From assembly GCA_018524725.1 (NCBI GenBank), contig JAEUWP010000416.1:22480-86479 (forward strand): DNA of 64,000 nt, in the 5' to 3' direction. The first letter of the stretch is position 1; every line of letters begins with the position of its first letter. This DNA comes from Podaxis mareebaensis. Taxonomy: Eukaryota > Basidiomycota > Agaricomycetes > Agaricales > Agaricaceae. The position numbers were made by a program, and so were the translations under genes. Below are positions 26,406 to 58,430 of the stretch, piece by piece. The notes under the pieces are model-generated. The model had not been told where the DNA came from and ran no database searches. It saw only the letters and a list, made by a program, of their open reading frames with translations.

Positions 26406-27812
26406 ATGCACACCTTGCCTCCGGAGCTTCTCCTTATGATCTTCACATTCGCATGCTTCACAAGCAACATCAGCGATACACTCACTACCATCCGCCTCTC
26501 CCATGTCTGTCGCTCCTGGCGTCGTCTCTCCCTAGCATCCCCAAGCCTGTGGTCCACCATCTCATACCACTCGCCTTTTGGGTACCACCGTAACTACGTC
26601 GCCCTCCAGAAACTCATGACCCACCTCGCGCGCTCGGGAAACAACCCTCTAACCCTCTACCTCACCATCTATAGCAATCAAGACGAGGGTTTCCAGATCA
26701 TCTGTGAACACTCCGTTCGTTGGAAATCATTCACCCTCCGTTGCTCGCAGGCGCTTATACCCTTCATAAGCTCGCGCCTACGAAAGGCGCCTGTCCCCAT
26801 CCTCCAGTTCCTGTGCGCTACGGCCATTCCTTCAGGCCGTAATCAAGAAGAGGATAGCTCCGGACCATCACCCGCCTCGCAAGGGAAGGGCCCATGTAGT
26901 ATTTTCTCTGGAGGCGCACCAAACTTGAGGTACCTCGAGCTTGGAAACGCCGCAGTATATTACATGCGCCCTGTCCACCTCGAAACCCTTTCCACGGTTC
27001 ACCTCCACAGCTCCTTCAACGACCTCGAACTCTCCCCCTCAGAACTCAATGCAATCCTCACAATCCCGAACCTCACAACTCTCACCATTCTCACAGAGTT
27101 CTGGGAGCTCATTCCCGACATCGCAGACATCTCTTCCGAGCGTATCATCATGCCCAAACTACGCTATCTGGGTATTCGTGGGCAATACGGGAGCGACTAC
27201 GAGGTCATGCGCATACTCGCCACAATCTCCTGTCCCCTCGTCGAAGTACTCATGCTCCAAAACGTCGTCGGGACAAGTCTATACGACGCCCCGACTGACA
27301 TTGAAAACCGCGAACCAGAAGTATTTCTCAACCTGCACACGTTACACTTGGTCGACAATTGCGAGATCTCAGCGTCGCTTCACCCACACATTGCGCGCGT
27401 CTGTGCTCCTGTGAAAGAACTCGTCTTCGATACTGGTTCATCCGACTCGTCTGCTATCGGTAGCATCTTGTTACCTTTTGAGGAGGACGGTTCATTACCC
27501 ACGAAACCGCCTATCGTGTTCCCGGAGCTGCATACCCTCGTGATTAGGTCGGTGGATAAACGCGATGCGCAAAATTTGATTATCATTTTGCCCGGGTTGG
27601 AGGAACAGGGACGGCCAATTGAAAGGATCGTCCTTGGGCCGGAGATTGTTGATGTGTGGATGGGGAGCGGGCATGTTGATGGGCTGAGGGAAATGAGGGC
27701 GGAAGTGTATAGAGAGGAGGAGACTGTTCCTGGAGTACCTTTATGGGTTAAGCCGAAGAGGACGTTGATTCTGCGGGCTTCTGACAGCAACGAGTCGTCC
27801 AATTCTGTTTGA
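26406..27812 (+). CDS. F-box protein with leucine-rich C-terminal half, 468 aa
   Basis: Single-exon gene starting MHTLPPELLLMIFTFACF. The F-box occupies about residues 3-52 (LPPELL ... IRLSHVCRSWRRLSLASPSL, then WSTIS), the pattern that binds Skp1 in SCF ubiquitin ligases. The rest has irregular leucine-rich-repeat-like segments (NLRYLELGN, LETLSTVHLH, NLTTLTIL, KLRYLGIRG, LHTLHLVDN, ELHTLVIRS), expected to bind the substrate. Such F-box/LRR proteins are greatly expanded in Agaricomycetes and the substrate cannot be predicted. It starts 273 bp after the MTU1 stop on the same strand, and converges with the next gene (stop codons about 250 bp apart). Confidence 0.85.
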   Translation: MHTLPPELLLMIFTFACFTSNISDTLTTIRLSHVCRSWRRLSLASPSLWSTISYHSPFGYHRNYVALQKLMTHLARSGNNPLTLYLTIYSNQDEGFQIICEHSVRWKSFTLRCSQALIPFISSRLRKAPVPILQFLCATAIPSGRNQEEDSSGPSPASQGKGPCSIFSGGAPNLRYLELGNAAVYYMRPVHLETLSTVHLHSSFNDLELSPSELNAILTIPNLTTLTILTEFWELIPDIADISSERIIMPKLRYLGIRGQYGSDYEVMRILATISCPLVEVLMLQNVVGTSLYDAPTDIENREPEVFLNLHTLHLVDNCEISASLHPHIARVCAPVKELVFDTGSSDSSAIGSILLPFEEDGSLPTKPPIVFPELHTLVIRSVDKRDAQNLIIILPGLEEQGRPIERIVLGPEIVDVWMGSGHVDGLREMRAEVYREEETVPGVPLWVKPKRTLILRASDSNESSNSV

Positions 27813-28063: not shown

Positions 28064-30271
28064 TCACCCAAGATACGTGTAGTAACTCGGGACAACCCTA
28101 AGCAACTCTTCAACATACCAAAAGCGCTCCATCTTCGCATTCTTCTTCTTTTTCTTCTTCGGATCCTGTGGTTCGAGGTCCTCAACGCGTACCATTTGAA
28201 CCCACGTACCCAGACACCCCATGCCGACGGAGATAAGATCGAGATATGCCGGGTCGACGAGCACACTGATTTCATCCTTGTGCGGGTCGAAGGGAGGCAG
28301 CGCACCAGGTTCAGCGGCTTTGGCACCGACAGTACCAGCGTCAGCATCACCAGTACCTGTCTCCCCACTCTTGATCTTCACGGCTCCTCTCGACGACTCC
28401 AGAATCTTGGGCATAGACAGGTGCGGCTCCTCGCCCCTGTTCCAGTTGACCCAAGGTTCAAATACCACTACACCAAACGTTCTCCTCAGAACGCCTTCCA
28501 CCGCCTCGGCGCTCACGTCCTTGGCAACTGGGAACTTGGACGTGTCGGGGGAGGGTGGGAAGACAGCTTTGATTCTGCGAACGGATGACTCGACGATGCC
28601 GGTTGTATGGGTAATTGGGAGAGCTGTGGGGCCGAGGAGGGGAATCAAGCTAGCTGGTCTGAAAACGTTCCAGCTTTCGTCATCATCTGCGCCGTTGCTG
28701 GTGTTGGCATTAGCGTCGGTGTTGGCATCGGTGGTAGTGTTAGTATCGCCATCTGGTTCGTTAGAAACCTCGACTACGCGAGTTCCGGTTACGGCGTCCT
28801 CATCTGGATGGATTGTGACGACTTCAGAATCCCAGTCGGTATCGGCTCCCCAACCATTCGACTCCCATCCCTCGCCCTCTTCGGTGTTGGCTGTATTGTT
28901 GGTGGTGTCGGTTGTGCCCCACCCCCCGATTCCCCGGGGCGGCACGTTCTCAGCTGCGTTCGTGCTGGCGGCCGTCTCAGCTGCCCCATCCCCACCTCCT
29001 TCAGTAACATCTTCCATTGATGAATAAGATCTGAAGACAAACACCTCCGCCTTTGGTCCCCAACATCCTTTACACGCCTTGTGGAACTCGTCTGGCCAAA
29101 CTTTGGCAAGTTTAGACGTGAGAGGAAGCTCCTTGAGCGCAAGGTCGATAATACGACGCGTCGATTCGTGTTTTATCGCGTTTTCTTCGCGTTTAGGCAG
29201 GACTTTATTGTCGATGAGGAAATTGATGAAGAAGCGCATCAGGATAGGCGCGCCGGTGAGGTTCGTGTCGGTCCTATTGGGTAATAGTAGAAAGGATTAG
29301 AAAATTCTCTAGATACAATAAAGGACATACCAGATTATGCCGCGATCACGAGCGTAAGACGAGAAGAACACCTTCAGCATCAGAGCCGGATCTTTCAAGA
29401 ACGCCTCGGTCTTAGCTTGAGCTTTCATTATTGCATCCGCAGAAGTGAGGTTCTGTGGATTTAAGATACCTCCCATGGGGTCGTCATCATCATTGTTGTC
29501 GAAATCGGAATCCGAGTCATCATCGGATTTCTGTTTCTTATTCTGTTCATCGGCCTTGGCTTCAGCACCTCCATCTGGACCAAGTGGAATCCCAGCGAAG
29601 CGAAGAAACTGTGTAATAGAAGGAGAATCGTATTAGATGGCGCGGCGATCAGATCCGATTGGCGACGATAACAAACCTCTCCCCAGACATAAACTGGGCC
29701 AGATTGCTTTTGTGCCAAGGGCCACGGCCTGAGGTTCTTGAAATCCCAAGCACCTTGGTAGAACCTCTCATACGCGTCCAAATGCCTATACACACATCCA
29801 TTAAAAATATCAAAACGCTTCAGGGTAATCAACTCACGGGTCGTAGGTTCCTTGTACACGATACGCAGGCTCTCTATCTTCCCAATACTCCTCCCAATCC
29901 ATCAGTGTCGGGCCGGCGTTAATACCTCCCGCTCTCTTCTTCCTCCTTTTCCTCCCAGCTGCACCTTTTCCATTCTGATTGGCTCTCTTGGTTTCGGTCT
30001 TGCACCAATCTGTTGAGTGACAGCTTGCCAACATTACAGTCGGCACACCGCACGCGTCGATCTCCGTTTCGTTGTCGTCGCCTCCTGGTTTGACCCTGAT
30101 CCCTCGTTCTTTGAACTCCTTAAATGGAATGATCTTTACACCGTCCGGGACTTTCGGGAAGGGTGGAAAGCGGATGAGATACTCTGTAGTGTTGCGTGAA
30201 CTCATCGCCGTAGCGGGTTTTGGTTGGTTGGATGTTGACGTAACGGTGACGGAAATGGTGTCGACTGCCAT
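28064..30271 (-). CDS. Arb1-like protein (putative Argonaute siRNA chaperone subunit), 676 aa
   Basis: Four exons: 30271-29838, 29785-29677, 29608-29331, 29273-28064, in frame (677 codons with stop). Visible: a basic GRKRRKKR patch (residues about 106-113, likely nuclear signal); MDWEEYWEDREPAYRVQGTY from residue 124; HLDAYERFYQGAWDFKNLRP; an acidic insert rich in Asp near 210-225; a helical stretch PILMRFFINFLIDNKVLP near 282-299; a long Thr/Asn/Asp-rich disordered region (about 350-450); and a poly-Lys run near the C-terminus (646-651). The order of a bipartite N-terminal segment and a helical FxNFLxxLxxxxVxP region resembles fungal Arb1, which with Arb2 and Argonaute forms the ARC complex in RNAi-directed heterochromatin. 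This is family resemblance from memory, not a search. The gene model itself is well supported; the function is tentative. Confidence 0.6.
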
Positions 30272-31588: not shown

Positions 31589-32429
31589 TCATACTGGTTG
31601 CTCGGGGTTCCTCTGTACGGCTACCTCCTGCAAGATGTTTAGTGCAGACTGAACCCCTTCAAAAACGAACCTCCTTGACCCGTTTGTCTCTAGGAAAGCC
31701 CATGCCGTCGGGACGTCGATGGCCGCGGCAGTGTGCACGAGTGATATTTTGTTGCACAACCTGCTCCTGTCAGATGTGCCACAGAGAACCGCTAGGGAGG
31801 AAATATAACTGCAGATCGGGATAAGGGGGATATTGTAGCGATTCCCAGCTTCGGCAAAGTAGAGGATGTGATCCACATAGGCGTGGCCTGTGGTGCGACT
31901 AAACTCAATAGAGTGAGCAGCAGTTTTGAGGACTACGAAGGAGCTCACCGTAGCCACAGGGCTATTCCATCGATGATGTCCTGTTCCGTTATATTGCCGC
32001 CGTCAAACAGCGGCGGGACGACGAGTGTTATCGGCTTTGGAAGGCCGGGAACACTCGCCTTGAAAGTGCAGATGTCATTCTCCGAGAAATGAGTGGGACC
32101 TCCCAGAGTCTGGGGACCACTCTGGGATTGCTGTTGTGCGGCTAATTTGACAAACTGGAAGAGAGAGCAGGTAATGAACACTTAGGCATCCCTCAGCCAC
32201 TCATAGCATGCAGTGACGACTTACCGAGGCTATTTCTGCGCCTACTGGGCCTATGAGCCTAATAAATGGTTAGTGGGGCTTTGTGCTACCGAATCAACAT
32301 CATTGTTATTACTACTCACAAGCACACAACATCATGATGAGAGAGGGTAATTCGAGAGGGTGAAGCGATTGGCTCTTTAGAGGGGCGATTTATGGCGCGC
32401 GGGGTGCCCGAAGAAAAACAGTTGCCCAT
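31589..32429 (-). CDS. putative degenerate G-domain (pseudo-GTPase) protein A, 219 aa
   Basis: Four exons: 32429-32320, 32258-32225, 32154-31949, 31898-31589 (introns 61, 70 and 50 nt; GTGAGT, GTAAGT and GTGAGC donors). The N-terminus MGNCFSSG matches the N-myristoylation pattern (Gly2, Ser6) with an adjacent Cys4 for palmitoylation, so membrane attachment is likely. After a Ser/Pro linker, the beta1/P-loop position reads DVVCLLIGPVGAEIAS (33-48), where a GTPase of this type has GPTGAGKSS: Gly, Lys and Ser/Thr are Glu45, Ile46 and Ala47. The G3 position reads LVVPPLFDG (92-100) instead of VDTPGFDD. The following TEQDIIDGIALWL, VDHILYFAE, LAVLCG, NKISLVHTA and FEGVQSALNILQEV keep the spacing of G-domain landmarks. 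The canonical family has many members in Agaricomycetes. My inference is a fold-retaining protein unable to bind GTP normally. Paralogue of the gene at 35402-36236 with identical intron positions. Confidence 0.72.
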
Positions 32430-32506
32430 CTCTGTAATTGACTGACTTGAAATAGATATGTGTGCAAAGGAACTGGAACGTTGGCCAGCATAGGGAATAG
32501 CGTGCG

Positions 32507-32514
32507 TTTTTATA
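32507..32514 (-). promoter_or_regulatory. TATA-like box of GTPase-like gene A
   Basis: Minus strand reads TATAAAAA, about 78 bp upstream of the ATG at 32429. Confidence 0.5.
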
Positions 32515-32559
32515 GTGGGAGGCTGCAGGCAAAGACCTATACCGGAACTCGCCACATTT

Positions 32560-33700
32560 TCTACGGGTGACTCCTCGCGGCGATTGTTGGTGATTGTGGT
32601 TCCTTGTTACCATTTCATAACTGGGATACAAAAGCACTATCGGAGTTCCACTTTCCCCCGGATCTGGAAGCGCCAGGAAGATGGCTTACCACTCCGTCCC
32701 CTAAGCCCAGTATCCAGTAGACATAAAGATCACGGAGAGAAGGGCAGTTCGGGACATCACATGTCAATGTCTCTAACTTGAATAATGACGTATGTCAGGG
32801 GCAGTTTGGGCATCGTGAAATTACCGCACCCGCACCCGCGCTCTACGGTAGGGTGCCGCTGGGGCGGTTTTATTGGTCGCGGCTTCAGAATCCGTAACTA
32901 TTTTGGTCTGCTGTATCCAACATTTCCCCCATTTGCAGAAAAATCCTCTCATAGATCCATCGTCTCTTGCAGCCCACAAAATGGACCAGAAAAGACAACA
33001 TGCCAGCGGTCCCTAGGCGACTCAGCGCACTCCGCTCGGTCCACCTCATGTTTTGACAACCGCATCAGAAACAGGCTCTTATCATCGTTCCACCCTTTGG
33101 TGGGAGTGAAATGGGGGAAGCTAATGTCAATCGTGGTGTAAGAGTGTGATTAACGTACAAATATCTTTCTTCTGCTGATCGCGAAAAGCTCGTGACTTGA
33201 AATGCACTACTTACAAGTAAACGTACGTCGGCAATCTGTCCCTTTAGAACTCATCAATCACTAGATGGTCTGCTTCATCAGCGCGCATTCATGCCAAACA
33301 ATAGAGGACGGTTTATTTCTAGCCTTGGCGTTAACGCTTGCCGCGGGGGAATCCGACGATTAGGTCTCAGGAGGTGCCTAGTGACTCATACTCGTGAGCG
33401 GGGCTGGAGAACGAACCCGCTCTCGTGAAATCCAGAACCATTCGTACTCCGAGATTTCGGGACGGTTATTCTGGCTACAGGGACGTGCTATTCCTCGATA
33501 CGTAAACGGAGATTTCATACAGGGACGGACATCAACCCCGGATCAACCAAAAGGCAGTCGCCACATCAGGAAAAGAGGACGGAATGGGTCGAACACGTAA
33601 AAACATAGACGACAATACGTTCAATAGATATTAGACCAACACGCCATAGCCTCGTATTAAGTATTAAGTATACAAAGAAGCGGTCCAAAAATGGTACCCG
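32560..33700. other. intergenic, nothing recognised
   Basis: Upstream of GTPase-like gene A. Short frames only (for example plus 32785-33141); none is supported by motifs or splice sites. Confidence 0.35.
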
Positions 33701-33714
33701 CTTGCACACAGGAG

Positions 33715-34118
33715 TCTTGTTGGACATTAGGAGCATTGACTTCGTCAAACCGAAAGACGGATTCAAGGACGATTAGCCATTCTCGGTTTCACAGATCTCT
33801 TCGATAGAGGACCCAAACCTCCCCTCGTGTATGTTTCCTCAAGCGTTCGGCAGTCCGTTGCCAGACATCAAGGATGATGGTTGGTCTACGGACTTCTCCC
33901 GGGAGAACACCCATACACACGAATATCTCCACCGCTCCTCTTCGCTCCCTTATTCCAGAAAAGCCAAATAGAGGTTATGGAGCAGTCGGTGAAGCTTTGT
34001 GATGATGTTTTAGGTGGTCAAAAATGGGAAATGCCTTCGTTCGCCGGCGGGAGTCATGGGAGGCTTGGGAGATCAATTGGGGTTAGCAACGAGGGTCAAG
34101 GGTCTTGAGTTATAAATG
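33715..34118. repeat. diverged duplicated segment, copy 1
   Basis: About 400 bp whose sequence recurs in diverged form at 34245-34545. Clearest match: GTGATGATGTTTTAGGTGG here and GTGAGGATGTTTTGGGTGA there, with flanking blocks in the same order. On the minus strand both copies share a frame (PKTSSQS followed by TD, then a shared SGG motif), which suggests the duplicated piece was once coding. Confidence 0.55.
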
Positions 34119-34130
34119 TTGCCTCAATAG

Positions 34131-34235
34131 AGCATATTTGCAAACCGTTTTCAGCGAGATTCCGGGCGTGGAGCAATTCAGTTTCAATTCAGTTTTCGCT
34201 GAGAACTCACTGAAAACGAGGTTGCAAATATGCTC
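34131..34235. repeat. palindromic foldback repeat, copy 1
   Basis: About 105 bp. The left half starts AGCATATTTGCAAACCGTTT, and the right half (34206-34234) is nearly its reverse complement, ending TTGCAAATATGCT, so the unit can fold into a hairpin of roughly 30 bp stem. A second copy lies in inverted orientation at 34877-34970. The two copies bracket about 640 bp, as the ends of a small non-autonomous DNA element might. No clear target-site duplication was seen. Confidence 0.65.
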
Positions 34236-34244
34236 TATTGATTT

Positions 34245-34545
34245 CACCAGACGGAAAGGACGATTCGGGTCATTAGGTGTTCTCGGCCTCACAGATTCCT
34301 CGTGAGAAAGACTTAAAATACCCTAGTGCGTCAATATGGATTCCTCCGCCGCTCTCCTTCACTCCTCCATGCCGCAAAGAGTCAAATGGAATTACGCAAC
34401 CGTCGGTCGTGCTCTGTGAGGATGTTTTGGGTGACCAAAGATAGGGAGATGCATTTGCTTTCGGGAGCCATACGGAGCTCGGGCCCAGATCAATTGCTGT
34501 CAGGAGCAAGGTTCAAACGTTCAAGGGTCTTTAGGTTATACATTC
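34245..34545. repeat. diverged duplicated segment, copy 2
   Basis: Second copy of the segment at 33715-34118, here lying between the two foldback repeats. The copies differ by many substitutions and small indels, so the duplication is not recent. Confidence 0.55.
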
Positions 34546-34613
34546 TGTCTCAGTTCGGTGGACTACTTCCTTTAGAGTCAGGATGGTCCCCAATTTTATC
34601 CAAATATGTCAGG

Positions 34614-34877
34614 TCAGACCATCTTGCCCCGCCCATCATGCTGCCTGAAGGCCTGAAGCATAATTGACATCTTTGCGTCCACCGCCGATATATTCAAAGC
34701 AACGTTCATGTCGGTCCAACAACACCTTTCATGGTTTGATTCCACGGATGTGAATCCTTGGTAAAATGCTGCTCCATCAGTTCGGGAAACCGGCAGAGAC
34801 CATATTTTTGACTTCCCATAATTCCCAATCACAGCAAAGCCTGTCCTTGGTGTGAGAAATAAGATAAAGGAAATGGA
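34614..34877 (-). CDS. coding-looking fragment between the foldback repeats
   Basis: A minus-strand frame with protein-like sequence (TGFAVIGNYGKSKIWSLPVS and then AAFYQGFTSVESNHERCCWT). No start, splice signals or family can be assigned. It may be an exon of a disrupted gene that also included the 34978-35193 segment. Confidence 0.25.
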   Translation of the reverse strand, partial: SISFILFLTPRTGFAVIGNYGKSKIWSLPVSRTDGAAFYQGFTSVESNHERCCWTDMNVALNISAVDAKMSIMLQAFRQHDGRGKMV

Positions 34878-34970
34878 GCATACTTGCAACTTCGCTTTCA
34901 GCGAGTTTTCAGCTTGAAACTAAATTGCTCCGCACCCAGAATCTCGCTGAAACGGTTTGTGAATTGATCT
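34877..34970. repeat. palindromic foldback repeat, copy 2 (inverted)
   Basis: Reverse complement of the 34131-34235 unit with about 80 percent identity by eye: AGCATACTTGCAACTTCGCT at the left, ATCTCGCTGAAACGGTTTGT at the right, and a shared core meaning GCGGAGCAATTTAGTTTCAA on the other strand. It also folds on itself. Confidence 0.65.
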
Positions 34971-34977
34971 AATGTAA

Positions 34978-35193
34978 TTATTTGGGAGGTGACTGCATGG
35001 CTTCGGGAGAGAACATTTGGGGGTCGAAGGTGGACGTTGTGTCGTTGGACGCTCCAGATGTCCAAAGCGTCTCGAATACGATGTGGACGATATTGAACGC
35101 ATCGAAGCCGTCATGAAATGCCGCATAGGGCCACTTTTGACTGGGTGGGTGCTTACATTCAAGAGCTGGTGAATGCGCAGCCTTCATTTTCAT
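34978..35193 (-). CDS. coding-looking fragment, hypothetical
   Basis: Minus-strand frame from an ATG at 35193 (MKMKAAHSPALECKHPPSQK) through AFHDGFDAFNIVHIVFETLW to a TAA at 34978. That stop lies 8 bp from the edge of the foldback repeat. The composition is clearly protein-like but the family is unknown. The position suggests a gene truncated by insertion of the repeat element, or a small gene of 71 residues. Confidence 0.33.
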   Translation of the reverse strand: MKMKAAHSPALECKHPPSQKWPYAAFHDGFDAFNIVHIVFETLWTSGASNDTTSTFDPQMFSPEAMQSPPK

Positions 35194-35401
35194 TTTTTTT
35201 TTGTACTGGTGGTGGAGGGGAATGTTAATGCTGGTAAGTTCGATGGCAATCTAAGAAGTCCTGTGGACTCGTCTATTCATATCTAGGTACTTCAAAGTAT
35301 GTCCGTACTACACTAAAAATCAATTAACGTGCCACATCTGGGGTGGGTCATCTGATGCACACATTGCTGAGAAGAATGAGTTTTCGAAGTCAGGAATGAA
35401 C

Positions 35402-36236
35402 TCACGGAAATCTTTGATTGGTGACGTCTTGAACAATTTTCAAGGCCGATTCCGCTGTTCCTTCGAATGACAACTGTCGCGCTCCTTTGTCGCTCAAATA
35501 TTTCCATGCCTTCGGCACTGGAAGCGTGGTTCCCGTAGCCTCCGCGGCACTGTTTGCGGTAGCATTCGTAATGAGAGAGACTTTAGCGCACAGCATCGCG
35601 CCCGATGCCTCGCAGAGGTTTTCCAAAGAGCTGAAGTAGCTCAAAACTGGCGCGAGCGGGATGTTGTAGCGACCACCAATTTCGGTAAAGTACAAAATAT
35701 GATCAACAAAGGGATAGTCTTGCCGGCTGCGACTGCAGAACCACAAGTTCAGTAACTTAGCGAAATCCCGAGGAACATTGATACCTTAGCCACTCCTTCA
35801 ACCCGTTGACAATAGCCACCTCCGTAACATTTACACCGTCAAATGGGGGTGGAACAACGAACACAGCTCGCCTCCCGAGGTAGGAAAGGGTGGTCTTGAA
35901 GATCTGTATTTGGTCGTCGGGATAATGAGGCAAGCCGCGCAGTCGAGTGTCATTTTGCGATTGGGTGGCCAGTTCGGCAAACTGGAAGAAGTGCGCATAG
36001 ATATAATGAACATCCCAGCCACAGGAAAATGCATTGAATACTACGAACCAAAGTGGCATGTGATTCAATAGGACCCATAAGTCTGGACAGAATTAGCGCT
36101 TCATAGCATGATATCTCATACAGAGAACGTACAAGAACACTATATCCTGGCGAGAAAGATCGGCCGAGGGGGAAGAAGCGAATGATTGGGAGGGTTGTGT
36201 GCGCGGAGCAGATGGGAAGCAGCAACAGTTGCCCAT
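35402..36236 (-). CDS. putative degenerate G-domain (pseudo-GTPase) protein B, 221 aa
   Basis: Paralogue of the 31589-32429 protein. Exons 36236-36133, 36082-36049, 35981-35785, 35732-35402; the three introns fall at the same positions and phases, and exon 2 is 34 nt in both. The N-terminus MGNCCCFPSAP has Gly2 and a Cys4-Cys6 cluster (acylation likely), but position 6 is Cys, less favourable for myristoylation than Ser. The beta1/P-loop region reads DIVFLLMGPIESHATL (31-46): nothing of GxxGxGK[ST] remains after Gly38-Pro39. The G3 position reads FVVPPPFDG (87-95). The rest follows protein A: TEVAIVNGLKEWL, VDHILYFTEIGGRYNIPL, ENLCEAS, KVSLITNAT, then FEGTAESALKIVQDV, with an extra Ala/Thr-rich loop. 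The stop at 35402 overlaps a possible GTGAGT donor, so a short further exon is possible. Shared loss of GTP-binding residues in both copies argues for selection on the altered form, not random decay. Confidence 0.72.
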
Positions 36237-38666: not shown

Positions 38667-41600
38667 CTAAAAGAATCCAGAACCAGGGAAAAACTGAGAC
38701 GATCCTTGCCCTCTCTCACTCCCACTCCCCACATCTCTCTTCAAACTATCACTGCTCCTGTGACCCTCCTTCGTCTTTCCCTTGGTCAACGACCCAGCCA
38801 TAAACTTCTTGTGCAGGCCAACCTCCTCGCCTTCATCCGACGACTCGTCGGCTTCCACCTCGTACTTCTGCTTCCGCTTGGTCGGATCGAAAATGTGACT
38901 CTTCATGTTCAACTCTGCGCTCGTTTTCCTCCTTACTTGTCTCTCTGCCTGCGGGTGTAGGGCGGGCTCTATCTCGAGTTGCAATGAAGGCGTGGGCGAG
39001 GGCGTTCGCGGAGGCGATTGCCGATATTGATGTGGCAGTTCAGAGGTCTCTTCAGCGAAGCTCTGTTGGAAGGGATCCAGGTCATCCGCATCCACTGCTA
39101 CTGGTAGAGGCGGGGGAGGTTGTGAAAGAGGCTGCAAGCGCTGTGCAGGTGCCCGGGCCTTTGTAGAAGGAGGGGTGATAGGTACGGAAGGAGAAGATTG
39201 GTTCGGAGATCGGGTCTGCCCGGGTTGTATGGAATGGTGTTGCGGTTGTTGGTGCTGCTGAGGAAGCTGGGTTGTTCTGCGAGGCGGCGATCGCGGTGAA
39301 AGCGGAACGATTTCTTCCGGTTGCTGTGAGAGGCCCTGCTGAGGACGGTTCTGACGCGTCCGGGAAGGAATCTGATTTCGGTTCTCATATTCGAACTGTC
39401 AAGTCGTTAGGATCACAGAAAGCATACATGAGTCTCGCGACGCACCAGGATAAATACTTCTTCTCGTTTCCGCTCACCAATGTCCTTGTCGATACAATAA
39501 CAAACATAGAGCGTGTCGGCTGTATCCTTCACCAATCCGACACAGAACAATCCAACAAGTGCGGTGACACCCCCTGCGAGCACCGAAGCACCTAACGCTT
39601 GATTTGAGGCACCAAGCGTATGTGCAACGAACAAATACGTCAGCAGCGCGAAAGGGAAAGACAGTGTCAAAGGTGCGACAGTCAGCAATGTGAGGGGTGC
39701 TGCATTGATACGATTAGTCAAATCTGTTTCGTAGGAGCAGCTCAACAGAAAAGATGAACACTCACGTTCAGAGCTGAACTTCTTCCTTCCCTGTTTGACC
39801 TTGGCCTCAACACTTGCGGTCAACGCTTTCGCCCTCCTTGCGCTGGGCATGAACGGATCTCCAGTCAGCCCCGCATATACCAGCGCATACTTGCTTAATG
39901 CAGTCGTCACGCCGTCTAGATAACCAACTGCCAACCGAATTCCATTCACGAGAAAGAATGCCCTTGGCGGGATGTACGCAGGTAGGCGTTCAAGGAAGAG
40001 CGTGAACAATGTGAGAAGGCGAATAATTGTGAGGATAAGAGCAGATAAGCAGACTGTGCCTAATGATGGACCTGTTGAACGGACGATAGCAGCGTGGATG
40101 GTATGTGTTGACATTGGAGGTAGTGGGAGGACGTCCGGGCTGTGACGAATTAGGGATGGTCCAGAATATAAATGACACGGATCACTCACTCAGCAAAGTA
40201 CCATGCTCCGATAACGCTTGCACAACTCATCCTGAGAATACCTCTCGCAACACCCCAGCTCCATAACCAAACCGCCACCGCCCCAAAGATCGCCCAGTTC
40301 GCCCAACCATAAACATGCCACTCCAGTTTCGTACTATCCTTCGAGGGTGTTCCGTATAGCAAAAGCCGGAAAACCAGTGTCAAGAAGGGAATGGATCCAA
40401 TTAGAGTAACAAGAAGGATCGCAGGAGATAAGGCAAGAAGGAAAGGATTAGCGATGAGAAGGTGCGTGGTAAGCGTGAGAGTAGATGAGGCGACGTGAAT
40501 GTCGCGGGGGAGATGGATAAGTCTTCGGGCAGTGAGGATTGACAATGCAAGCGGAATTAATGAAAAAAGACGAAGACTGATGAAATGATGATAGTCAGTA
40601 GGGAGATTAACCTTAGCATTGATGGGGAAAGGTAGGGAAAATTAAACAAATGCGGCGTTCACTCTATCATCGATCGAAGCGATGGGAGGCGAACGCCAAT
40701 AGGTGGAAGAGCAGCAAAGGACTAATGACTCACCCAACAGTTTCGCCCCATGTCGGGTCCCCTTCTTCAGCATCCCACATAAAACTCCCAACGAAAGCCC
40801 AGATGGCAGATATGAAGAGTGTTACAGGAATGAAAACTGAAGTTGCAATCATGACAGGTCGCACAAAAATGCGTAATAAGAAAATATGTGTGTAGGCCAC
40901 TAGAGCGCTCAAAATTGTCAGGATAGTCAACATTGGGACAGTATGCAATAGCGTCGTATATGGGAACGGCTTCGTCACTTTCGAGGGCTTTCGAGTGAGG
41001 AACAGCAGGAGGACAGAGAAGAGGATGCATAACGAGACACTCGCCAACCATAGCGCGGTCCAGATGGAATCATTATACTTCCGTCGATTTCGGGGCGTGT
41101 GCCGGGGATCTGGGAGGTTGAATACATCAAGGGGTCTTGCACGACCGTCTCTCGGAAGAAGGGACTCTGTCAAAGATAGGGAAGCGGGTTGTCTGCTGGC
41201 TGTTGAGGGGGGAGGGGGAGGGTGCTGTGCGCGGGCTTGAGGGCCAGCGGGAACATACACGTCTGGCGGTGGCCCAGAGTCAGACGAAGTTGAAGACCGC
41301 GAGGGCGAGGGTGAGTGAGATCGTCTGAACGGTGACGAGGCTAGATGCGCAAGCCATCCACCATGATGGGAACTAGACACAGATGACGCATCATCGGATC
41401 GGATGAGGGGAGTCCGTTGAGGGTTGATTCGTCTGGAGTCAAAGCCCCCCGCGGGCGTATGTTCGTCCTCATCTAGTCGAAGATACGGGTCGTCATCTTC
41501 TTCCTGACGACGCTGAGCAGTTCTGCTGACCTCGCTCTCTCCAATGTGTGGGTCGTCGTGGTCATCGAGATCTGTGTCGTGACCAGCACGAGACTCGTTG

Positions 41601-55858: not shown

Positions 55859-56879
55859 TTACGACCGAACGCGGACAGGCATGTGCGGGTGTGATTCCTG
55901 TCGTCGGTGCGCCGGTTGAGGAAGAGGGATTGGAAAGGACCGGATGAGTTCTAACGTTGATGAATGGAAAGACTTCTTGGGGTGTGTCGGTGCACTCTGC
56001 TGGTGACGTTTTCCATGCTCGGGAGAATACGAAGGAGAGGAGTCGAGTGTGCTGGGGGTACGAGGCGAAGCTGAGCCGGAAGAAGACTCATCGCTAGACG
56101 GCGATAGCTCGGGAACCGGAGCAGATGAGGCCTGCGGCGACGCTGCTCGGCTCGCGGCAGGATGGGGATGGGTGAATTGGAGATGGTGGGTTCGGTGGGG
56201 GTGTGAGGCAGGATATACAGCGTTGAGGAGACCTTGGTGGTGGCTCAAGATATCGGCCTCGGTGACACCGAGCTCGAAATCGAGGACATCGAGGTACTCG
56301 CGCTCGATGCGACCAACGTCACGCTTGCCAAAGACACCGGTACAAAGAGCCCAGTGTACGTTCTTAAGAGTGGAGTCGTTGAGGTACTAGAATAGGAAAG
56401 AATGAGCGTTCAGAGACGAAAAGGGGGGAGTGTGGAGCAGATGTGCTTACCTTGGAAGCGACGATGATTGCCCCAAGAAAAACTCGCTCCAGTGCCCATT
56501 CCTCCAACGCAATGTGCAAGTGAGGTTTGGCCCTGTCAATATATACTAGGGCAACAAGGATGGTTTGAATGGTGATCTCTGCACGCTCGATGACGTTCTT
56601 GACAAAGGTGGTGAACTTGGCATGTTCTGGACGGCGTGCACGAGAGCGACTTCGGGATGAGGAAGGAGTAGGACGGCCCATGGCATAGTCTACTGTCTCC
56701 ACTACACAATCGACAAGGTACTCTGGAAAGATGTGAGTATTGGAGGGTGGGTAGGGGGGGAGGAGGAACGTACCGATGACATGTTTGGAGACCTTGATGT
56801 TGATGAGCTCAAGAAGAGCTGGGGAATGTGTAGCGGGGTCCACAAGGGAGTTCGGATGGACAGGGGACGCCTTGTACAT
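55859..56879 (-). CDS. Pho85-type (PCL) cyclin, 301 aa
   Basis: Cyclin that would activate a Pho85/CDK5-like kinase. Three exons: 56879-56774, 56722-56451, 56386-55859 (302 codons with stop; introns 51 and 64 nt). The N-terminus reads NSLVDPATHSPALLELINIK. The cyclin box covers about residues 35-150: EYLVDCVVETVDYAMGR, FTTFVKNVIERAEITIQTIL, VYIDRAKPHLHIALEEWALE, RVFLGAIIVASKYLNDSTLK and then NVHWALCTGVFGKRDVGRIE and LDVLDFELGVTEADIL. These keep the Lys (VASK) and Glu (IERE) positions used to contact the kinase. The C-terminal 130 residues are Ser/Pro/His-rich and disordered, a likely phosphorylation region. The first intron is stop-free and a multiple of three, so unspliced transcript would encode a 17-residue insert. 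Closest in form to Pcl1/Pcl2-like cyclins of basidiomycetes. Confidence 0.9.
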
Positions 56880-56925
56880 GGCTGGAGATGAGGGCGGTGA
56901 ATATTGGGAGGCATTGTAGAGGTAG

Positions 56926-56935
56926 GATATATAAA
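56926..56935 (-). promoter_or_regulatory. TATA-like box of the cyclin gene
   Basis: GATATATAAA on the plus strand (TTTATATATC on the gene's strand), about 50 bp upstream of the ATG at 56879. Confidence 0.45.
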
Positions 56936-56999
56936 CGAATCGGAGAGGCAGAGAGCCGATACGGGGAATACGGAAAGAGTCACTGCTTGTGAGACTCTC

Positions 57000-58430
57000 C
57001 CGTCCATAAGATCGGGATTTCATCTCAGATCTGCCTGTCACACTGTCACACCCCTCTGCAAACCAGCTCAGTTCGCCTACCCGACGCCCGCCACCCACCC
57101 TTCTCCCGCTGTCCACGCACGTCCACGCACCAGCCCATTGCTGACAAACCTCCGTGCCCTGCCCCGCCGGCCAACCAACAGACGCTCGCTGCACGAGTCA
57201 TTGCGAATTCTTGCGGCATCTGGCATGCCCTCTCCTGCTGACGATTGTGGGACCATGAGTCGCTCTTCGTGACTCGTCCTTCCGGTCACCACTCGGGGAA
57301 TCTGCTGACTCTCACTCGCTATAACGTACCTAGAATCCGTATCCACTCATTGTCTAAGAAGGCAACCCACGAATTGGCTGCAATTAAATTAAATTTCTAA
57401 ATGCCCCCAACCTGGGTAGACTATATTTGTACAACAAAGCTGCAAATGGTGGCAACAACCACCTCGGAAACCAGAGTACGTGTACGTACGGCCATTGGCA
57501 GGCACAAACCCGCATTCCCCGTCCACCCACCTTCCAATCAGTCTTCTCCCTGGATTGTCCATTTGTGGTATCCACGTACATATACACTTCGACCGACGAT
57601 GAGCATCCATCAGCCCACTCGACTCCCTTACCCTCTATAGACATAGCCACATCCACTATCATATCACAACCATACCCTCCATCCCGAATCAGGCTCATCC
57701 TCGGGAACCTGCCCGTATCAATCCAGCATGTGGCGCATTTCACTATGACGCACTTGATGACACGGCTTTACAGGGAGATACTGTCTTCTTGAAAAATCGT
57801 GCCACCCCAGTCGCAGTCCGCAATACGCAGTCACATTGGACGGTGCATTGTCAGACATCGCAGCATCGTTCCCAACGCGCTTAGATCGACCAAATCACCA
57901 TATCATATCACCACCCTTAACCGGCCTCCTGGCACCTAGCCGTCGCTTACTATATTAGACTGGTCACGACTCGCCCCCACCCAGTGGGAGGAGAACTGGG
58001 CGGGGCCCGAAAGTTCCTTGGCCGCCCGCCCTTGTGAGCTCGCTAAAGCACCTTTCTGCCCCTAGTCCGATTTTCCTTTTGCTTTCCGTGATCATCACTC
58101 TGATGGTCCACGCTACAACTTTGCATCCAAGCGACTTGTTCTGCTTTCGGAATTCTTCTAGTCTATAGAACTAGTTCACTTCGCTTGCGGCCATAACCAC
58201 TCACAGAATCACTCTTACTCGAGTATGCCGATAATCAACATTTCTAGGTTCCTAACATCAGTGACCAAGGTGACTTACAGAGTAATGCAATATTATCACG
58301 AAGAAACGACAAAGTCGGAGTTGCAAGTAACTTACACCGAAAACTGCTCCTCTTAACAAAAGTCTCGCTCCGCCTGGCATTTCCCGACTCCAGTACCCCC
58401 AGTGACCACCCAACCATACCCAGCCCTCCA
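57000..58430. other. intergenic, upstream of the cyclin gene
   Basis: Promoter region of the cyclin and unassigned sequence. Several open frames (57077-57346, 57384-57792) overlap on both strands in pyrimidine-rich DNA; none is supported. Confidence 0.4.

Follow-up and report, generated by a model that had tools for sequence, protein, structure and literature searches.

Can a G-domain protein that has lost the residues with which GTPases hold guanosine triphosphate (GTP) be kept by selection, and if so, what might it do? The question is raised by two adjacent genes, here called A and B, in a 64,000-nucleotide (nt) stretch of the Podaxis mareebaensis genome (contig JAEUWP010000416.1, positions 22,480 to 86,479; "the window"). 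Both lie on the minus strand within window positions 31589-36236, and models built from the sequence alone give each four exons separated by GT...AG introns in phases 2, 0 and 2. Gene A (exons of 110, 34, 206 and 310 nt) encodes 219 amino acids (aa). Its exon 1 (32320..32429) specifies an MGNC N-terminus, a myristoylation/palmitoylation motif, and the first beta strand; exon 2 (32225..32258) the former P-loop, LIGPVGAEIAS; exon 3 (31949..32154) VVPPLFDG where canonical members have VDTPGFDD; and exon 4 (31589..31898, stop included) the latter half of the G domain, from beta4 to alpha5, the protein ending shortly past the last helix. Gene B (104, 34, 197 and 331 nt; 221 aa) has MGNCCC and the first beta strand in exon 1 (36133..36236), the former P-loop LMGPIESHATL in exon 2 (36049..36082), VVPPPFDG at the same canonical position in exon 3 (35785..35981), and the second half of the G domain with the stop in exon 4 (35402..35732). 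The proteins are 46% identical. A preliminary description of the locus had claimed two four-exon minus-strand paralogues of these lengths with matching phases and with these P-loop and VDTPGFDD replacements, all of which the exon models uphold; of the exon 2 that it called identical, only the length (34 nt) is the same in both genes, the sequences agreeing at 16 of 34 bases. TATA-like boxes precede both genes, TATAAAAAC at -85 from the ATG of A and TATATAAAA at -124 from that of B. A scan of the window for a 34-nt P-loop-type exon with a fitting exon 3 downstream returned A and B only, and is by itself just moderately specific since 20 mononucleotide shuffles of the window yielded 4 such hits in total.

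The same genome (36.95 Mb, 429 contigs) holds further relatives. A search with B detected a gene on contig 345 (C345) at an E value of 4e-20, its best exon being 46% identical; three further genes, a pair on contig 60 and a single one on contig 14, came up weakly, at E 0.005 to 0.07. Local tblastn with B against eight fetched loci found contig 60 at 7.6e-8 and 3.6e-6 and contig 14 at 5.5e-7. The contig-14 relative is intact. It carries FVGITGSGKST and VFLDTPGFDD, has the same exon plan with a 34-nt P-loop exon 2, and passes the PF01926 (MMR_HSR1) gathering cut-off. A and B do not reach that cut-off, and Pfam returned no family for them at E up to 10. Profiles bridge the gap: hhalign aligned the five degenerate proteins (A, B, C345 and the contig-60 pair) with 44 canonical fungal relatives at a probability of 99.0 (E 5.1e-18, 182 columns), and A and B alone at 98.9. 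Like the fungal family, A and B have a 34-nt exon 2 that holds the P-loop segment and is flanked by phases 2/0. Fetched loci and window together contain 59 genes, A and B included, with a 34-nt exon and a fitting exon 3, in 46 of which the Walker A Lys is kept and in 13 lost. These are not genome totals because only 34-nt exons were scanned, in loci that were picked by similarity search and cover only part of the matches, and because five loci chosen for PF01926 matches (L022-L026) contained no gene of the 34-nt-exon type. As modeled from sequence, then, A and B are intact paralogues descended from a large fungal GIMAP/Toc34-like G-domain family, the origin first proposed for them.

Both nucleotide motifs are gone, not only in the original pair but in all five genes. 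The Walker A Lys is replaced by Ile in A and C345, by Ala in B and by Thr in both contig-60 genes, and the G3 Asp by Val throughout. The P-loop segment reads GPVGAEIAS in A, GPIGSEITS in C345, GPIESHATL in B and GCAGTKTGE/NE in the contig-60 pair; VDTPGFDD has become VVPPLFDG, VVPPPFDG, IVPPLFDG, IVLPGTEK or IVPPGTNK. The canonical TTMW (G4-like) motif is missing from all five, a further degeneration. A and B thus lack the GxxGxGK[ST] plus DxxG that define an active GTPase, and all five genes have one or more G motifs missing, as in class (i) pseudoGTPases. Ordinary GTP/Mg binding is not expected once the Walker A Lys and the DxxG Asp are gone, and proteins of the A/B type are inferred to be class (i) pseudoGTPases without the normal capacity to bind GTP/Mg. 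Among conserved columns of the five genes, residues of the same class are kept in 147 of 310 cells outside the motifs compared with 30 of 90 inside. The proteins are also short: in the four of five in which the last helix was located by pattern, the end comes 16-19 residues past its start. A span of at most 210 residues from P-loop to stop was found in 10 of 11 Lys-lost and 1 of 34 Lys-kept genes, counts that come from related, non-independent genes modeled to the stop codon with no search for further 3' exons, and from cut-offs picked after the lengths were seen.

Between the intact and the fully degenerate genes stand half-degenerate ones. On contig 60 (30.3-35.9 kb; L047, L061, L062) four same-strand genes with GRTGSGMSQ, GSTGSGISQ, GRSGSGMSK and GRTGAGIST adjoin the two fully degenerate genes, and contig 25 has another GRTGAGIST gene. 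All five of these GMS/GIS genes keep DTPG and they form one clade (97/96); the literal Lys-to-Met change occurs in C60:30308 and C60:33207. With the Lys replaced and DTPG kept, the contig-60 genes bear a likeness to the GMS regulators among the immunity-related GTPases of vertebrates. Three members on contig 199 (L049) have the Walker A Lys changed to Arg (GRS), with 179-210 residues from P-loop to stop. The genes at contig 25:3673 and contig 60:35917, both of the GIST type, are nearly alike and could be a recent duplication or an assembly duplicate.

The N-termini form a second common feature. All five degenerate proteins start MGC or MGNC. Six family members were seen with such a start; the Lys is lost in all six and all six match the myristoylation pattern, A and B having both the pattern and the Cys. 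An MG start with a fitting pattern and an adjacent Cys is a typical myristoylation-plus-palmitoylation signal. The contig-60 GMSQ gene starts MGCFWSGMS and its degenerate neighbor MGCFWSKKS. No such start was seen in the other seven Lys-lost genes, in which exon 1 is unread or uncertain, with MFAEV read in C60:35917. Genes that match the myristoylation pattern and keep the Lys lie on contigs 147 (482899), 301 (109421) and 395 (136208). The idea that these genes are short as well held for C301:109421 only (190 residues); for contigs 147 and 395 the DNA retrieved ends before the gene does.

The fold of the canonical family is predicted to be nearest to the GIMAP/Toc34 GTPases. The structure model of a canonical relative, P0002 (predicted local distance difference test, pLDDT, 87.9), matched GIMAP7 best, then EngB and Toc34, and its sequence compared with solved structures gave GIMAP4 first (2.3e-6), followed by GBPs and, weakly, immunity-related GTPases (IRGs). 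For gene A the exon-4 half was predicted (pLDDT 77.5) from unspliced window sequence and 17 further rows, 15 of them canonical. Its element order, E-H-H-E-H-E-H, is that of the P0002 model from the strand at 109 on, save one extra short helix in the P0002 model (172-176). Foldseek of this half against the PDB gave no match at E<=0.001, the weak ranks 1-3 being Ypt7 and Rab7 complexes and a KRas; a PDB sequence search with the mixed alignment found nothing under E 0.19. The structural comparison called for at the outset covered the exon-4 half of A only: the order of elements came close to the canonical model, and no PDB match at E<=0.001 appeared. A GTPase fold for the five is indicated by homology (hhalign 99.0, shared exon structure).

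The degenerate genes share one history, and at least three of them are constrained. Trees were built from 55 rows and then from 60, the second without two long rows (XGPSGTGRS_L049_p_1079 and K_L027_m_1484) and with seven rows added. Both group the five in a single clade (support 100/99), so that the simplest reading puts the motif losses before A, B and the others diverged. Pairwise codon likelihood, tested against neutrality, gave dN/dS ratios (omega) of 0.29 for A-C345 (twice the log-likelihood difference, 2dlnL, 43), 0.21 for A-B (2dlnL 56) and 0.22 for B-C345 (2dlnL 49), all with p<1e-10; fixing omega at 1 costs 63 log-likelihood (lnL) units for A/B/C345 (IQ-TREE MG model; bracketed value taken as fixed). 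By the same method omega was 0.13, 0.20 and 0.42 for three canonical pairs and 0.07 for a GMS/GIS pair whose distance is saturating. On these codon comparisons A, B and C345 are under purifying selection, and since the A/C345 ancestor most simply already lacked the motifs, selection acted on the degenerate protein. The sequence of events in the preliminary description, loss before the duplication and maintenance afterwards, is supported by the clade and the omega range of 0.21-0.29, and the check it proposed on dN/dS and stops gave omega well below 1 for A, B and C345 and no stops. The trees allow more than one sister for the five: holding the GMS/GIS clade with the five costs 0.18 lnL (p of the approximately unbiased test, p-AU, 0.454), joining the five with GMS/GIS and a four-gene Lys-kept clade in which the MG-starting genes of contigs 147, 301 and 395 lie gives p 0.421, and joining them with that four-gene clade alone gives p 0.345. 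For this reason a stepwise order GKS -> GMS -> nothing is no more than a candidate.

Relatives in other genomes were sought among 5.8 billion proteins. B alone gave 309 candidates, none at E<=0.001. An alignment that included the canonical contig-14 protein returned 316 relatives, so fungal proteins are present in the database. The best 120 of the 316 are uncharacterized "G domain-containing" proteins; the named ones are mostly from mushroom fungi, with a few ascomycetes lower down, and the top is taken by Leucoagaricus, Agaricus, Macrolepiota and Leucocoprinus, the last a member of the Agaricaceae, a pattern that would fit an Agaricales source for the window without being proof of it. In these best 120, GxxGxGK[ST] is kept in 119, P0095 starting downstream of the motif, and an MGC-like start occurs in none. 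With the five degenerate proteins alone, one of 2901 candidates was recovered at E up to 10, P0121, a 122-aa protein whose last part is the gene A exon 4 sequence and which may stem from another assembly or strain. Since only annotated proteins that have exact words in common with the query can be recovered, distant or unannotated relatives may be missed. A plasmid DNA search gave no match, and no description of such a fungal family appeared among the matches listed from the open-licence literature, small-GTPase surveys of mushrooms not covered. PseudoGTPases as a kind are known; this fungal clade with an acylation motif is, judged by its sequences, apparently new and narrowly distributed.

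What might such proteins do? Since the GTP-binding parts are gone while selection keeps the proteins, they are probably membrane regulators or decoys of active relatives. In the mechanism proposed here, the proteins would be N-myristoylated and palmitoylated and would thus reside at a membrane, where the degenerate G domain, if it keeps the dimerization face, would pair with GTP-competent paralogues that then stay inactive, or would act as a decoy for their partners. GIMAP and Toc GTPases dimerize through the G face, and the model for such restraint would be the GMS-type IRG proteins, which restrain GKS effectors on self membranes. We give this picture of nucleotide-free, acyl-anchored partners an even chance of being right. 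An extended form is rather doubtful: a GKS/GMS-like two-tier system, independent of vertebrate IRGs, in which dozens of GTP-competent GIMAP/Toc-like effectors would be restrained on self membranes by dually acylated, partly tandem pseudoGTPases that arose by way of GKS -> GMS/GIS -> complete site loss.

Several observations weigh against pairing at the membrane or loosen its premises: i) membrane anchoring of A and B is inferred from the motif alone, and 3 of the 26 Lys-kept genes with exon 1 read also start with the myristoylation pattern (MGAACS, MGANIS, MGAAMS), so that the idea of acylation as a mark of dead members only was given up; ii) A and B are not themselves GMS proteins, having Ile and Ala at the Lys position; iii) only about half of the conserved non-motif positions are kept, so the whole domain has moved far; iv) the length contrast weakens when further complete models are added, to 10 of 12 Lys-lost and 3 of 36 Lys-kept genes (with the limit set at 200 residues, 9 of 12 and 3 of 36); v) A was folded for its exon-4 half only, with canonical rows in the alignment and with no PDB match at the threshold; vi) the branches that join at the root of the clade are long, a caveat also raised by the tree program; and vii) the contig-60 pair has an omega of 0.85 (p 0.49), indistinguishable from neutral, and this part of the clade may be relaxed, decaying or fast-evolving.

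The main competitor, possible but on the unlikely side, keeps the membrane and changes the target: an acylated adaptor whose degenerate G domain would serve, independently of nucleotide, as a scaffold for proteins other than the paralogues. Class (i) pseudoGTPases are known (PMC5593906), and a role of this sort has been proposed for the p190RhoGAP pG domains, dynein LIC and CENP-M. The five proteins have residues in common that were not seen in the canonical proteins, for example VD[HC][IV][LF] ahead of the fourth strand and FxE behind it, and CENP-M appears at the weak ranks 30 and 49 in the Foldseek search with the exon-4 half of A. The data fit adaptor and paralogue pairing alike; the 46 Lys-kept paralogues in the scanned loci make regulation of a partner the more economical guess. 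An improbable alternative is that the pocket was rebuilt, either for a different mode of GTP binding or to take a different nucleotide or a lipid as its ligand. The P-loop segments of A and C345 are alike (GPVGAEIAS, GPIGSEITS) despite a synonymous divergence above 1 (1.2-1.9), but the clade as a whole has no common new motif, given GPIESHATL in B and GCAGTKTGE/NE in the contig-60 genes. Decaying pseudogenes of an expanded GTPase family would explain the motif loss, the near-neutral contig-60 pair and the failure of the five-protein search to find relatives elsewhere. This reading is very improbable, and for A, B and C345 already largely refuted: neither an omega near 1 nor a broken frame is seen in these three (omega 0.21-0.29, p<1e-10), the frames of all five genes are intact, with no stops or frame breaks, their exon lengths agree modulo 3, and A and B have TATA-like boxes. 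Wrong gene models that missed an alternative exon with an intact P-loop are scarcely credible, even for models deduced from sequence, since exon 2 matches the P-loop exon of intact relatives in position, length and phase, and the window scan, of 34-nt exons only, found no other such exon.

The surroundings of the pair are mixed. Between A and B lies a 118-bp element resembling a miniature inverted-repeat transposable element (34124-34241) with perfect 20-bp terminal inverted repeats; the 20-bp word has 4 copies in the genome, two of them at this element. A 39-bp inverted repeat pair occupies 34149-34187 and 34914-34952. Pfam matches in the window comprise an F-box-like open reading frame (ORF; 26406-27812, plus strand), a choline transporter-like ORF (39413-40189, minus) and, below the cut-off, weak matches to Arb1 (28064-29239, minus) and cyclin (56364-57194, minus). 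Six of the ten neighboring ORFs tested had no Pfam match.

The genome appears to hold a fungal family of probably membrane-anchored pseudoGTPases next to their intact and half-degenerate paralogues, so that the steps by which a GTPase site is lost under selection may be traceable. If the partner mechanism is true, it would amount to a fungal counterpart of the way in which vertebrate immune GTPases guard self membranes, and would hint at a role for the large uncharacterized G-domain families of mushrooms.

Set against known systems, A and B are closest to the fungal "G domain-containing" or "P-loop containing NTP hydrolase" proteins (PF01926), to which they are tied by profile homology, by a similar order of fold elements and, within this genome, by the 34-nt P-loop exon. 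Unlike A and B, those proteins keep GxxGxGK[ST] and DTPG, and most Lys-kept models here extend further at the C-terminus (beyond 210 residues from the P-loop in 33 of 34). The vertebrate IRGM/GMS and quasi-IRG proteins resemble this family in having a replaced Walker Lys or a modified G domain among active paralogues (PMC1297648, PMC4837601). In the IRG GMS proteins the Walker A Lys is changed to Met (PMC1297648), and they are found on organelle membranes and maintain GKS effectors in their guanosine diphosphate state (PMC4837601). A and B differ in also lacking G3 and in being little more than a G domain, and a regulatory role for them would be by analogy. Septins have lost GTPase function repeatedly and assemble through G interfaces, and sporulation septins might bind no nucleotide (PMC10731463). 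Septins form filaments and belong to a different sequence family; A and B are not known to assemble. Like the class (i) pseudoGTPases p190RhoGAP pG1/pG2, CENP-M and fungal dynein LIC, A and B have a GTPase fold, in their case predicted, without nucleotide motifs; those examples (PMC5593906) are domains or subunits of conserved machines, whereas A and B belong to a multigene clade with an acylation motif that derives from another GTPase family.

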